Origin: an uncultured Solirubrobacteraceae bacterium
GTDB lineage: Bacteria > Actinomycetota > Thermoleophilia > Solirubrobacterales > Solirubrobacteraceae
Length of the DNA: 56,046 nucleotides
Direction: 5' to 3'
Assembly: GCA_902806205.1 (NCBI GenBank)
Contig: CADCVR010000071.1
Span: 1-56,046, forward strand
Both the position numbers and the translations under genes were made by a program. Below the pieces are notes generated by a model that saw only the letters and a list, made by a program, of their open reading frames with translations, was not told where the DNA came from and searched no databases. Positions 30,478 through 34,511 of the stretch are shown here, piece after piece. The first letter of the stretch is position 1. Each line of letters opens with the position of its first letter.

Positions 30478-30999
30478 ATGACGAACCCCCTCGCAGTCTT
30501 CGGGATCAACTCCGACGGCCTCAACCTCGCCGTCAAGCTGCTCATCCTCCTGCTGGTGTTCGTCTACCTCGCGCTCGTGTACTACACGTACACCGATGCT
30601 CGCCGGCGGATCGCGGATCCCATCGTCATCGGGTGTGCCACCGCCGCCTCGCTGTTCCCGTTCGTGGGGACGATCATCTACATGATCGTGCGCCCGGCGG
30701 AGTACCTCGACGACGTGCGTGAGCGCGAGCTCGAGATGCAGGCGGCCGAGGCGCGGCTGCTCCAGATGGACTACTTCCTCTGCCCGCACTGCGACTACCA
30801 GGTCGAGAAGGACTTCCGGCGCTGCCCGAACTGCATGCGCAAGCTCAAGGACCCGTGCGTCACCTGCAACAAGCCGCTCGAGCCCGAGTGGAAGATCTGC
30901 CCGTACTGCGAGTCGGCGATTCCCGGCGTCACCCCCTCGGCTCCGCGGCGCCGGCGCCGCCGCGAGTCCGAGGAGGATCCCGCGATCTACGAGACGTAG
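30478..30999 (+). CDS. Membrane protein with double zinc ribbon
   Basis: A 173-residue protein with two hydrophobic helices near the N-terminus (about 18-42 LLILLLVFVYLALVYYTY; about 53-77 GCATAASLFPFVGTIIYMIV), a short amphipathic linker, then a C-terminal double zinc ribbon. Four cysteine pairs are visible: CPHC, CPNC, CVTC and CPYC, with spacing typical of zinc-ribbon pairs. The tail is basic then acidic. The protein is probably anchored with the ribbons in the cytoplasm. The function is unknown; zinc ribbons commonly bind nucleic acid or partner proteins. Confidence 0.8.
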   Translation: MTNPLAVFGINSDGLNLAVKLLILLLVFVYLALVYYTYTDARRRIADPIVIGCATAASLFPFVGTIIYMIVRPAEYLDDVRERELEMQAAEARLLQMDYFLCPHCDYQVEKDFRRCPNCMRKLKDPCVTCNKPLEPEWKICPYCESAIPGVTPSAPRRRRRRESEEDPAIYET

Positions 31000-31304: not shown

Positions 31305-31612
31305 CGGTGGACCTGACGGGATCCTCCCACCCCATAGGGTGACCGCAGGGTCGCGCACGCTCCGCGGACGGCGCGGATCTCGTGCGCCGGCAGCACTCGG
31401 CAGGCGCTCTGCGCCCCTGCCGTGGAAATCAGGGTTGGCACGTATTGCCCACTCTGCCTGCGAGTAGTACGGTCGCCGGAGTACGCGAAACCCTTGCGCG
31501 GTGAGGCGGTCCGGGCCCTGTCCGCGCTCCCGAAGCGTCAACCGCAGCGCCAGGAACGGATACCAAGAGCAACCTGTCTACGCCGCCATCGATCACCCGA
31601 AAGGCCGTCGTC
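31305..31612. other. 308-bp intergenic region before the protease cassette
   Basis: No gene recognised. It contains the candidate promoter at 31445-31473 and a leader of about 130 nt before the protease ATG, in clear contrast to the leaderless starts elsewhere. I find no obvious stable hairpin in that leader. Confidence 0.45.
31445..31473 (+). promoter_or_regulatory. Candidate promoter of the protease cassette
   Basis: TTGCCC (31445-31450), a 17-bp spacer and TACGGT (31468-31473). It is the only plausible sigma-70-type promoter pattern in the gap and would drive all four genes to 34460. Confidence 0.4.
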
Positions 31613-32545
31613 ATGTCCGATGCACCGCACACTCCCGCCTCGAGCGAGTCTGACCTTGTCGGGTTCGCCCCGGATCAACCGCTGTCGTCCCCGCCCTCCG
31701 AGGGCGCTGCCGGAGAGGGTGCCAGCGTCGAGGCCCTGGGCAGCGGATACGACGGGGTCGAGGATGTCGAAGGGTACGTTCACCCCGAGGGGGCTGCGTC
31801 GGACCTGTGGACGCCTCCCACGGCTGACCTTCCCGACGTCGGCGAGGCGTCCTTCGGACCGCTCCCGCCGCAGGCCGAGACCGTGCACGGTCCCGACGAC
31901 CGCGTCCAGATCGGCGATCCGAGCGTCTATCCCTGGCGCGCCCAGTGCTCGCTGGCGATGACGGCCGCCGACGGCTCGCGCTGGATCGGCAGCGGCACGT
32001 TCATCGGGCCGCGCACGGTACTGACGGCTGGGCACTGCGTCTACGTCAAGGGAAGTGGTGTTGCCGGCCGCGACGGCTGGATGCGGTCGATCCAGGTCAT
32101 GCCCGGGCGCAACGGTGCCAGCCTGCCCTACGGGTCGCAGACGAGCTCCACGTTCCGCTCGGTCACCGGCTGGACGGTCTCGGGCAACCAGGAGTTCGAC
32201 TACGGGGTGATCATCCTGCCGGCGAGCTTCAACGTCGGGTGGCTCGGATTCTGGAACTTCAGTGACGCCGACGTGCTTGCCGCGACCGGGAACATCGCCG
32301 GCTACCCGGGCGACAAGCCCGCCGGCACCTTGTGGTACGCCGCGCGGAGGGTCGCCTCCGTCGGACCCCGAAAGGTGCACTACGACATCGACACGGCGGG
32401 GGGCCAGAGCGGCAGTGGGGTCTACCGCTTCTTGAACAACGAGCGCCACGTCTTCGCCATCCATGCCTACGGCGGAGCGACGACGAACTCCGGCACGCGG
32501 GTCAACGGCGAGGTCGCCGGCAACCTGCTCGCCTGGAAGGTGTGA
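31613..32545 (+). CDS. Trypsin-like (V8/glutamyl endopeptidase-like) serine protease
   Basis: A 310-residue serine protease of the chymotrypsin fold. The triad reads His141 (VLTAGHCVY), Asp196 (EFDYGVIIL) and Ser266 (GGQSGSGVY), the serine motif resembling V8-type proteases (GNSGS) rather than GDSGG. The first ~100 residues are acidic and rich in Pro, Ser and Gly, like a propeptide or disordered extension, and there is no Sec or Tat signal, which is unusual for this class. The ATG has AGG at 8 nt. It heads a set of four tightly packed genes (protease, regulatory-like domain, subtilase, propeptide-like protein). The substrate is unknown. Confidence 0.85.
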   Translation: MSDAPHTPASSESDLVGFAPDQPLSSPPSEGAAGEGASVEALGSGYDGVEDVEGYVHPEGAASDLWTPPTADLPDVGEASFGPLPPQAETVHGPDDRVQIGDPSVYPWRAQCSLAMTAADGSRWIGSGTFIGPRTVLTAGHCVYVKGSGVAGRDGWMRSIQVMPGRNGASLPYGSQTSSTFRSVTGWTVSGNQEFDYGVIILPASFNVGWLGFWNFSDADVLAATGNIAGYPGDKPAGTLWYAARRVASVGPRKVHYDIDTAGGQSGSGVYRFLNNERHVFAIHAYGGATTNSGTRVNGEVAGNLLAWKV

Positions 32546-32549
32546 GGAA

Positions 32550-32819
32550 GTGAGCGGTGCGCCTCCGGGGCTGATCGCCGGCGTGGTCCGTGATCAGAGC
32601 GGCGCGCCCGTCGAGGACGCACGCGTGTACTTCACCGACGCCCCGGGAGCCATCCCGGATGTTGCCGCGCTCACGGGGGCGGACGGCTGTTTCTCGCTTG
32701 CCGCTCCGCTCGACGGCACCTACACCCTGGAGTGCGGCGCCGACGGCTTCGCCGCGGCCCGCGCGACCGTCGCCTCCCGTGACGGCGCCGGCGTGGAGCT
32801 TACGCTGCGGGCACGGTGA
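32550..32819 (+). CDS. Single-domain carboxypeptidase-regulatory-like protein
   Basis: An 89-residue protein consisting of one transthyretin-like beta-sandwich of the carboxypeptidase-regulatory-like type: IAGVVRDQSGAPVEDARVYF (about 8-27), then TGADGCFSLAAPLDGTYTLECGADGF. Such domains are normally parts of large extracellular proteins; here it stands alone without a signal peptide. The GTG start at 32550 lies 4 nt after the protease stop, with gagga just upstream, so the two are co-translated. It may be a binding or scaffolding partner of the proteases on either side, which is inference from position. Confidence 0.65.
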   Translation: MSGAPPGLIAGVVRDQSGAPVEDARVYFTDAPGAIPDVAALTGADGCFSLAAPLDGTYTLECGADGFAAARATVASRDGAGVELTLRAR

Positions 32820-32889
32820 CCAGCCGGCCCGCGCCCGCAGCGCACCTTGAAGACAATGATCACGACAATCAGACAGGGGACGATGAGCG

Positions 32890-34197
32890 ATGGAGTTCGA
32901 AACAGCCGGAGGGAGGGAGTACCCCGCGGGCACCACGACGGGCAGGTTCCTCGTGCTCTTCGAGGAGGGAACCGCGGAGGCCGGCGTCGCCGCGCTGAGT
33001 GAGGCCACCGGCGCGCGCACTGTCACGGCCACCGACGAGGCGACCGAACCCGAGCCGAACCAGGCCTTGTTCTTCGAGAGCCTGGGTGTGGCCGTGGTCG
33101 ACACAAGTCCTGAGCAGATGCAGGAGGCCGGCCTCAGGGCGGCGGGCGCCGACGGCATCCTCGCCGTGGAGGCGGAGCGCATCAACCACGCCATCGAGGC
33201 GCGCTCCTACGCGGAGGAAGGCACGCCCACGGGCGGTCGTTCGGCGGAGTACCTGCGGGGCTTTCGCGATGCGGTGCTGCACCTGACGACCGCGGACGCC
33301 GGTGGGCTGGGCATCGAGGCGGCGACCGCCGCCGCCGTCGACGAACTCCAGGCCACCTGGGGACTGCAGGCGGTCAGGGCGGTCCATTCGTGCTACAGCG
33401 GAAAGGCCATTCGTGTCGCGGTGCTCGACACGGGCTGCGATCTGCAGCATCCGGATCTGCAGGGGCGAGCGATCCAGAGCCGGTCGTTCGTCCCCGGCGA
33501 GGCCGTGCAGGACGCAAACGGCCATGGCACGCACTGCATCGGCACGTCGATGGGACCGAAGTGCCCGCCCGGGGGGCCGCGCTACGGCGTGGCCCATGAC
33601 GCCGAGATCTACGCCGGCAAGGTGCTGAGCAACGCCGGGTCGGGCAGCGATTCCCAGATCCTCGGGGGAATCAACTGGGCAGTGCAGGACAAATGCGTGG
33701 TGATCTCGATGTCGCTGGGCGCCGGCACCCGTCCGGGCCAGAGCTACTCGCGGGTGTTCGAGGCCGTCGCCGCGCGCGCCCAGCGGGCAGGGACGCTGAT
33801 CGTCGCCGCGGCCGGCAACGAGAGCAACCGTCCGGGTGAGGTGAACCCGGTCGGGCATCCGGCCAACTGCCCCTCGATCATGGCCGTGGCCGCGCTCGAC
33901 TCGGCCCTCGGTGTGGCGCGGTTCTCCAATCGCGGGATCAATCCCGACGGCGGGCAGGTCGACATCGCCGCCCCGGGCGTCGATGTCTACTCGAGCTACC
34001 CGTTGCCGACGCGCTACCGGCGGCTCAACGGGACCAGCATGGCGACCCCGCACGTGGCCGGGGTGGCCGCCCTCTTCGCCGAGGCCAACCCGGGCGCGCG
34101 TGGGGCGGCCCTCGGCCAACTGCTGACGACGCGGGCACGCCGGCTCACGAGCCTCTCCTCCGCCGACGTGGGCGCCGGGTTGGTGCAGGCCCCTTGA
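32890..34197 (+). CDS. S8 family subtilisin-like serine protease
   Basis: A 435-residue subtilase. The catalytic triad is Asp180 (VAVLDTGCD), His212 (NGHGTHCIG) and Ser383 (GTSMATPHVAG), and the oxyanion Asn lies in AAAGNESN (about 312-319). The N-terminal ~105 residues (FLVLFEEGTAEAGVAALSE, then LGVAVVDTSPEQMQ and GILAVEAERINHA) resemble an inhibitor-I9-type propeptide. Residues 105-160 form a spacer. There is no signal peptide. The ATG at 32890 is preceded by ggggacgatg. Its stop overlaps the TTG of the next gene (TTGA). It is probably made as an inactive zymogen; whether it acts inside or outside the cell is open. Confidence 0.9.
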   Translation: MEFETAGGREYPAGTTTGRFLVLFEEGTAEAGVAALSEATGARTVTATDEATEPEPNQALFFESLGVAVVDTSPEQMQEAGLRAAGADGILAVEAERINHAIEARSYAEEGTPTGGRSAEYLRGFRDAVLHLTTADAGGLGIEAATAAAVDELQATWGLQAVRAVHSCYSGKAIRVAVLDTGCDLQHPDLQGRAIQSRSFVPGEAVQDANGHGTHCIGTSMGPKCPPGGPRYGVAHDAEIYAGKVLSNAGSGSDSQILGGINWAVQDKCVVISMSLGAGTRPGQSYSRVFEAVAARAQRAGTLIVAAAGNESNRPGEVNPVGHPANCPSIMAVAALDSALGVARFSNRGINPDGGQVDIAAPGVDVYSSYPLPTRYRRLNGTSMATPHVAGVAALFAEANPGARGAALGQLLTTRARRLTSLSSADVGAGLVQAP

Positions 34198-34460
34198 GCC
34201 GGCCGGAGCCCCCGGGCGGGCAGCCGATCGAGGTCAGCGTGCTCGTGGACGGCGAGCACCTGGCCGCGATCGAGGCCGTGGTGGCCGAACTGGAGCGTAC
34301 CGGCCTCCGGATCAGCGCAGTCATGCGGACCGTCGGCGTCATCACGGGAACCACCGACGACACGTCTCGGTGCTCCGCGTTCGAGGCGCTCGAGGGCGTC
34401 GAGTCCGTCGAAGTCGCGCGAACGTTCCAGCTGCCACCGCCGGACTCCCCGATCCAGTGA
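34194..34460 (+). CDS. Free-standing subtilisin-propeptide-like (inhibitor I9-like) protein
   Basis: An 88-residue protein starting at TTG 34194, overlapping the subtilase stop (TTGA). The pattern EVSVLVDGEHLAAIEAVVAELE, SAVMRTVGVITGTTD, FEALEGVESVEVARTF and a terminal QLPPPDSPIQ has the beta-alpha-beta-beta-alpha-beta order of subtilisin propeptides. Small proteins ending FQLPPPDSP are sometimes mislabelled ketohydroxyglutarate aldolase; no aldolase motif is present. Translation coupled to the subtilase suggests an inhibitor or foldase of the protease, which is inference from fold and position. No signal peptide. Confidence 0.65.
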   Translation: MSRPEPPGGQPIEVSVLVDGEHLAAIEAVVAELERTGLRISAVMRTVGVITGTTDDTSRCSAFEALEGVESVEVARTFQLPPPDSPIQ

Positions 34461-34496
34461 GACGCCCGCCGGTGTCCGGCGCCCGTGGAAGCCTCC

Positions 34497-34502
34497 TAGC
34501 AT
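34497..34502 (+). promoter_or_regulatory. -10 box TAGCAT of ndk
   Basis: TAGCAT ends 9 nt before the ATG at 34512, giving a near-leaderless ndk transcript separate from the protease cassette. Confidence 0.45.
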
Positions 34503-34511
34503 CCGGTGGAC

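Follow-up and report, generated by a model that had tools for sequence, protein, structure and literature searches.

Two protease gene pairs side by side in an uncultured Solirubrobacteraceae bacterium: a leaderless subtilase with a stand-alone I9-like protein and a glutamyl endopeptidase-like zymogen with a CarboxypepD_reg protein

Four closely spaced genes in the genome of an uncultured Solirubrobacteraceae bacterium raise the question of whether two unrelated serine proteases and two small proteins belong to one system. The genes lie on the plus strand of contig CADCVR010000071.1, whose analysed stretch of 56,046 nucleotides is called the window here, and encode, in this order, a trypsin-like protease, a lone CarboxypepD_reg (carboxypeptidase-regulatory-like) domain, a subtilase and a small protein resembling the subtilisin propeptides of family I9. 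The initial annotation had seen in them a possible self-contained proteolytic cascade, with one protease activating the other and with a role in defence as an option. All four of its open reading frames (ORFs) were confirmed at the same coordinates, but the most likely start of the CarboxypepD_reg gene is the GTG codon at 32550 and not 32463, since its relatives start at the same place. It appears probable, though well short of certain, that the four genes form two distinct pairs, which now stand side by side, and not a single system. Module A consists of the trypsin-like gene (31613–32545) and the CarboxypepD_reg gene (32550–32819), and module B of the subtilase gene (32890–34197) and the I9-like gene (34194–34460).

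Both pairs of neighbouring genes recur in many distant genomes, far above chance. The genome searches used one genome per species, and genes in unannotated loci were called from codon-position G+C. The small gene was found directly downstream of the subtilase gene at all 27 loci of the genome search (26 in Streptomyces and one in a further actinobacterium) and at eight of eight plasmid loci, which came from Methylobacterium, Rhizobium, Palleronia, Hymenobacter, Deinococcus, Vibrio and Streptomyces; the pair is also present in S. resistomycificus and in one genome of the window's own family. By profile, an I9 gene accompanied the subtilase at 36 of 37 loci of this subtilase family, compared with none of 80 unrelated subtilase loci. 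The pair is spread over four phyla (Actinomycetota, Pseudomonadota, Bacteroidota and Deinococcota) and is, as judged from gene order, a near-obligate and strongly conserved bacterial unit. Similarly, the CarboxypepD_reg gene directly follows the trypsin gene at 24 of 26 loci, including all 17 in Streptomyces and those in two metagenome-assembled genomes (MAGs) of Burkholderiales. A conserved third gene near either pair was sought among these loci and none was found. Viral contigs contained no trypsin relative, and their subtilase matches were ordinary subtilases lacking the small gene.

The two pairs do not appear to be inherited together. Among 296 Streptomyces genomes, 17 carry the trypsin and 26 the subtilase; both were found in two, where 1.5 would be expected (P = 0.45). 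In the trees of the two proteases, the joint loci fall in separate places, which forces at least three changes. Because co-occurrence is at the chance level and the trees are discordant, the two modules are best regarded as independent, and the four-gene set was ruled out as a conserved entity on the same counts and trees.

The subtilase of module B, a protein of 435 residues, matches Peptidase_S8 (E = 1e-50), and its triad D180/H212/S383, already read as intact in the initial annotation, is invariant across ten relatives. About 150 residues precede its catalytic core and include a probable built-in, propeptide-like domain of the I9 type (about residues 17–108; 32938–33213, plus strand). This domain is suggested by weak matches of Inhibitor_I9 to the N-domain in two of the ten relatives (E about 0.05), by a weak comparison of the N-domain with the small-protein profile (E = 0.009) and by an order of strands and helices that fits an I9-like domain in a low-confidence model of the full subtilase (predicted local distance difference test (pLDDT) score 41), which was used for element order only. 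The small protein itself has 88 residues and a TTG start, and its gene overlaps the subtilase stop by 4 nt. When a nine-member profile of this protein was searched against 396 whole genomes, it recovered the family member of the window and that of one further genome (G197) along with 13 other matches, 11 of which were subtilase ORFs matched N-terminal to the catalytic domain. With a 36-member profile, the best PDB match was the propeptide of Tk-subtilisin (E = 0.013), with nearly the whole domain covered. The AlphaFold2 model of the small protein (pLDDT 81) has the order strand-helix-strand-strand-helix-strand and superposes on pro-subtilisin E, the BPN' prosegment, the Tk propeptide, the PCSK9 prodomain and POIA1 with Z scores of 7–9. 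Sequence and model together identify the small protein as a stand-alone I9 (subtilisin-propeptide) domain, with the propeptide homology and the ferredoxin-like fold that mark members of peptidase inhibitor family I9. The earlier description of a free I9-like module next to a subtilase with a propeptide-like domain of its own is thus supported.

Some observations weigh against this assignment. The top structural match is the Tat chaperone NapD (Z 10.2; root-mean-square deviation 5.5), the ferredoxin-like fold being a common one. In the Pfam scan the small protein fell below the cut-off, and the Pfam I9 model remained below it in every member of the family. In addition, the C-terminal tail LPPPDSPIQ (34431–34457, plus strand), which hardly varies between the window and most Streptomyces members and differs by one change in Methylobacterium, is short or absent in the Rhizobium, Deinococcus and Vibrio members. 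In known I9 proteins the C-terminal tail occupies the substrate groove of the protease (PMC6993865), and a similar place is proposed for LPPPDSPIQ by analogy.

How could a cell keep such a protease? A hydrophobic N-terminal segment was sought by hydropathy from the called starts and from alternative upstream starts of the cassette genes, and none was found. From the called starts, the 12-residue hydropathy maximum at the N-termini of the first three genes is 0.5–1.3, whereas membrane proteins encoded in the window reach 2.4–2.8, and the sole higher value in the subtilase, 2.06, belongs to a strand of its folded N-domain. The absence of a visible export signal, noted before, therefore holds for alternative starts as well. 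From the pairing and from the behaviour of known I9 proteins, we infer that the small protein would inhibit its subtilase in trans. The subtilase, predicted to be cytoplasmic, would fold with the help of its built-in propeptide-like domain, and the free I9 domain, co-translated from the overlapping gene, would then bind the mature enzyme, with the tail filling the substrate groove. The protease would be kept silent, much as a toxin is by its antitoxin, until the I9 protein is lost or degraded; such a block on the mature enzyme would make a leaderless subtilase safe to keep. If this is true, bacteria possess a control device like the stand-alone I9 inhibitors, apparently an intracellular one, and the pair offers a directly testable model for the restraint of a leaderless subtilisin, as well as a candidate function for a family of ~80-residue proteins listed as hypothetical in public records.

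The stand-alone I9 inhibitors cited in previous work, namely POIA1, the yeast proteinase B inhibitor, Arabidopsis SPI-1, TgMIC5 and Plasmodium SUB1-ProM, are all eukaryotic (PMC6993865). They share with the window protein the small, free subtilisin-propeptide fold and the C-terminal tail, and SUB1-ProM also adjoins subtilisin-like genes. The pair described here differs from them in being bacterial, in the lack of leaders on both proteins, in the overlap of the two genes and in its near-obligate pairing. No description of a bacterial pair of a subtilase and a free I9 protein was found in the literature covered (open-licence papers). For the intracellular subtilisin Isp1 of Bacillus, an inhibitor protein inside the cell, IPI, has been proposed (PMC3901451), and the window subtilase resembles Isp1 in having no signal peptide. 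However, the window enzyme is not an Isp: it carries an I9-like domain in place of the short propeptide of ~18 residues (18 in Isp1). IPI has an Ig-like fold, and IPI genes are reported not to lie near subtilisin genes (PMC3901451). The likeness to toxin–antitoxin pairs is one of gene arrangement only.

Module A begins with a protease of 310 residues (31613–32545, plus strand) that matches Trypsin_2 (E = 3e-6) and whose triad H141/D196/S266, likewise reported as intact before, is invariant across five relatives. A profile of these five relatives led to glutamyl endopeptidases in the PDB, the enzyme of B. intermedius (1p3c) being the top match (E = 4.6e-20). The match starts with V91 of the window protein, aligned to residue 2 of mature 1p3c; residues 1–89 (31613–31879, plus strand) are therefore taken to be a propeptide that ends at the conserved E89. 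What had been described as an acidic extension of ~100 residues is accordingly better seen as the propeptide of a glutamyl endopeptidase zymogen. E89 is invariant in the five relatives, and Glu occupies nearly all of the junctions that were read, with Lys in two further relatives. The S1-site residues T261 and H284 are invariant as well and align with the Thr and His of the staphylococcal enzyme. By its triad, its sequence relationship and its S1 Thr/His residues, the protein is a glutamyl endopeptidase of the V8 (S1B) type, but one without the signal peptide for secretion; its relatives, too, lack a hydrophobic N-terminus by hydropathy. It thus resembles the V8 and B. intermedius enzymes (PMC5508998) in the catalytic domain, the propeptide junction and the conserved S1-site residues, and it differs from them in its missing signal peptide and in its dedicated CarboxypepD_reg partner gene.

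In V8-type enzymes the S1 site is completed by the N-terminus once this is set free; autocatalysis removes the long folding part of the propeptide, the final activation is usually left to another protease, and self-activation has been reported for one such enzyme that has Glu at the propeptide junction (PMC5508998). Since the junction residue in the window protein is also Glu, and so matches the predicted specificity of the enzyme itself, self-processing is predicted: the protein would be made as a leaderless zymogen and cut itself after E89. The subtilase would not be needed for this step, which argues against the earlier proposal that one protease activates the other. The second protein of module A (89 residues; 32550–32819, plus strand), whose GTG start lies 4 nt past the trypsin stop, matches CarboxypepD_reg with E = 5e-13, and it would be a dedicated partner of the protease, acting as an inhibitor, a chaperone or a targeting domain.

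Should the two modules nevertheless be read as one cascade? On this unlikely reading, the subtilase would strip the propeptide from the glutamyl endopeptidase, the I9 protein would set the threshold and the CarboxypepD_reg protein would recruit substrates, much as SspA is activated by aureolysin. The last activation step of V8-type enzymes does usually depend on another protease (PMC5508998; PMC12021127), and the gene order, for which a search in other genomes had been suggested, does recur. Yet the two pairs are adjacent in only four genomes: the window, Candidatus Siliceabacter, S. resistomycificus, where the order is the same, and Streptomyces G520, where they lie on opposite strands. Even this number exceeds random placement and weighs against complete separateness of the modules; a functional link may exist, and either a loose link of this kind or the sharing of islands is a possible explanation of the adjacency. 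Other trypsin pairs have other proteases for neighbours, of the papain type (locus L063), the astacin/matrixin type (L067) or the trypsin type (L041 and L011), so that the protease beside the trypsin/CarboxypepD_reg pair seems to rotate. Against the cascade stand the chance-level co-occurrence in Streptomyces, the absence of a neighbouring subtilase at 22 of the 26 trypsin loci and the match of the junction Glu to the trypsin-like enzyme's own predicted specificity. Moreover, in Candidatus Siliceabacter maunaloa (L012, 5755–6237) all that is left of the trypsin is a stretch of ~78 C-terminal residues joined to unrelated sequence, with the parts around the catalytic His and Asp missing, whereas the other three genes, for CarboxypepD_reg, subtilase and I9, are intact. 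The self-contained four-gene system of the initial annotation thus gives way to two pairs that are inherited separately.

A similar combination of genes is known from staphylococci. The sspABC operon (V8 protease, staphopain B and staphopain inhibitor; PMC12021127) shares with the cassette a V8-type zymogen, a second protease and a small inhibitor of the latter. However, the products of sspABC are secreted and its second protease is a papain-like cysteine protease, whereas the cassette consists of leaderless proteins in separable pairs, with a subtilase and an I9-like inhibitor; with a subtilase as its second protease, the cassette is not an operon of the sspABC type. Among the Streptomyces loci, the papain-type gene (L063, 7594–8700) and the astacin/matrixin-type gene (L067, 7323–8399) both lie 3' of the trypsin/CarboxypepD_reg pair and show no obvious leader. 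In S. resistomycificus (L009, 9007–11650), the four genes are followed, nearly end to end, by an astacin-type metalloprotease that looks leaderless, an ATP-grasp ligase of the MvdD type, which belongs to a graspetide-synthetase-like family, and a YbaY-like protein.

It is possible, although we would not presume it, that the subtilase pair is a widespread, horizontally moving protease–antiprotease unit of a toxin–antitoxin-like kind, which would digest proteins of the cell or of an invader upon loss of the inhibitor, and that the glutamyl endopeptidase pair is a second such unit. A more specific version, in which the cassette is an anti-phage or conflict module whose proteases are freed as effectors once a threat removes the inhibitor, is improbable, more so than the cascade. 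In its favour are the signs of horizontal movement, with plasmid carriage in several phyla, the toxin–antitoxin-like pair at the same insertion site in a sister genome, a trypsin relative with an AAA_16 ATPase and an EAD5-trypsin as neighbours, and conflict-type neighbours at some plasmid loci, although such neighbours are usual for plasmids. On the other hand, the cassette contains no sensor gene. In a PADLOC scan, the neighbours of 15 Streptomyces subtilase loci gave 10 families among 106 proteins, compared with 56 families among 106 proteins in control regions (~250 kb away and mostly on the same contigs, three being in other Streptomyces genomes); the family counts overlap, as related models match the same protein. 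With fewer defence families near the subtilase than in the controls, an association with defence was rejected, and the defence option raised earlier finds no enrichment to rest on. In Pfam, the neighbours of the Streptomyces subtilase loci proved to be metabolic and regulatory. Matches that PADLOC gave for the window's own proteins were also set aside as evidence for defence, as they reflect shared protease folds.

NTP-dependent conflict systems (PMC7159879) likewise use leaderless trypsin and subtilisin domains, and one relative resembles them in its neighbourhood, but the window cassette differs in having no ATPase, EAD, Trypco or NucA gene. No STAND or MoxR-type NTPase and no effector-associated domain was found among the cassette proteins; such features were seen only beside that relative, in a Frankineae MAG (L011, 6001–12008), where genes for a large AAA_16 ATPase and an EAD5-trypsin come after the trypsin gene, an arrangement known from published conflict systems. 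A distant subtilase/small-protein pair was also observed on the Vibrio plasmid pSEA2 (L020, 3777–9384), between a gene annotated as DndB and a DNA cytosine methyltransferase gene.

Relatives within the wider families of the trypsin, the subtilase and the CarboxypepD_reg protein are mostly extracellular, which counts for a further alternative, namely that the small protein is a trans-acting folding chaperone and not an inhibitor, or that the proteins act outside the cell, which they would reach through lysis or non-classical export. Although propeptides serve both as folding aids and as inhibitors (PMC6993865), and the absence of a leader does not prove a cytoplasmic location, this is the least probable of the alternatives. 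A second folding domain would be redundant in view of the propeptide-like domain that the subtilase retains at its own N-terminus, and no conserved secretion genes were seen next to either pair.

The cassette lies within a stretch of ~3.2 kb (31305–34505) between an ORF of 100 codons and ndk. In seven genomes of the same genus, a zinc-ribbon gene (followed in two by the 100-residue ORF) stands directly upstream of ndk, with no cassette. Nothing else occupies the gap in six of the seven, and in the seventh (G002, locus L189) it is filled, between the 100-residue ORF and ndk, by two genes that resemble an antitoxin and a PIN-type toxin, families that were read by eye. As the site is empty or otherwise occupied in these sister genomes, the ~3.2-kb stretch is a recent insertion in the window's lineage, and the gap upstream of ndk is a small insertion hotspot for accessory units. 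The G+C content of the inserted stretch is not distinctive, no convincing repeats were found at its ends, and a scan for promoters and terminators found none. The window also encodes, at 30478–30999, a double-zinc-ribbon protein with predicted membrane helices, whose gene is conserved, between folC and ndk, in each of the eight members of the genus that were searched.

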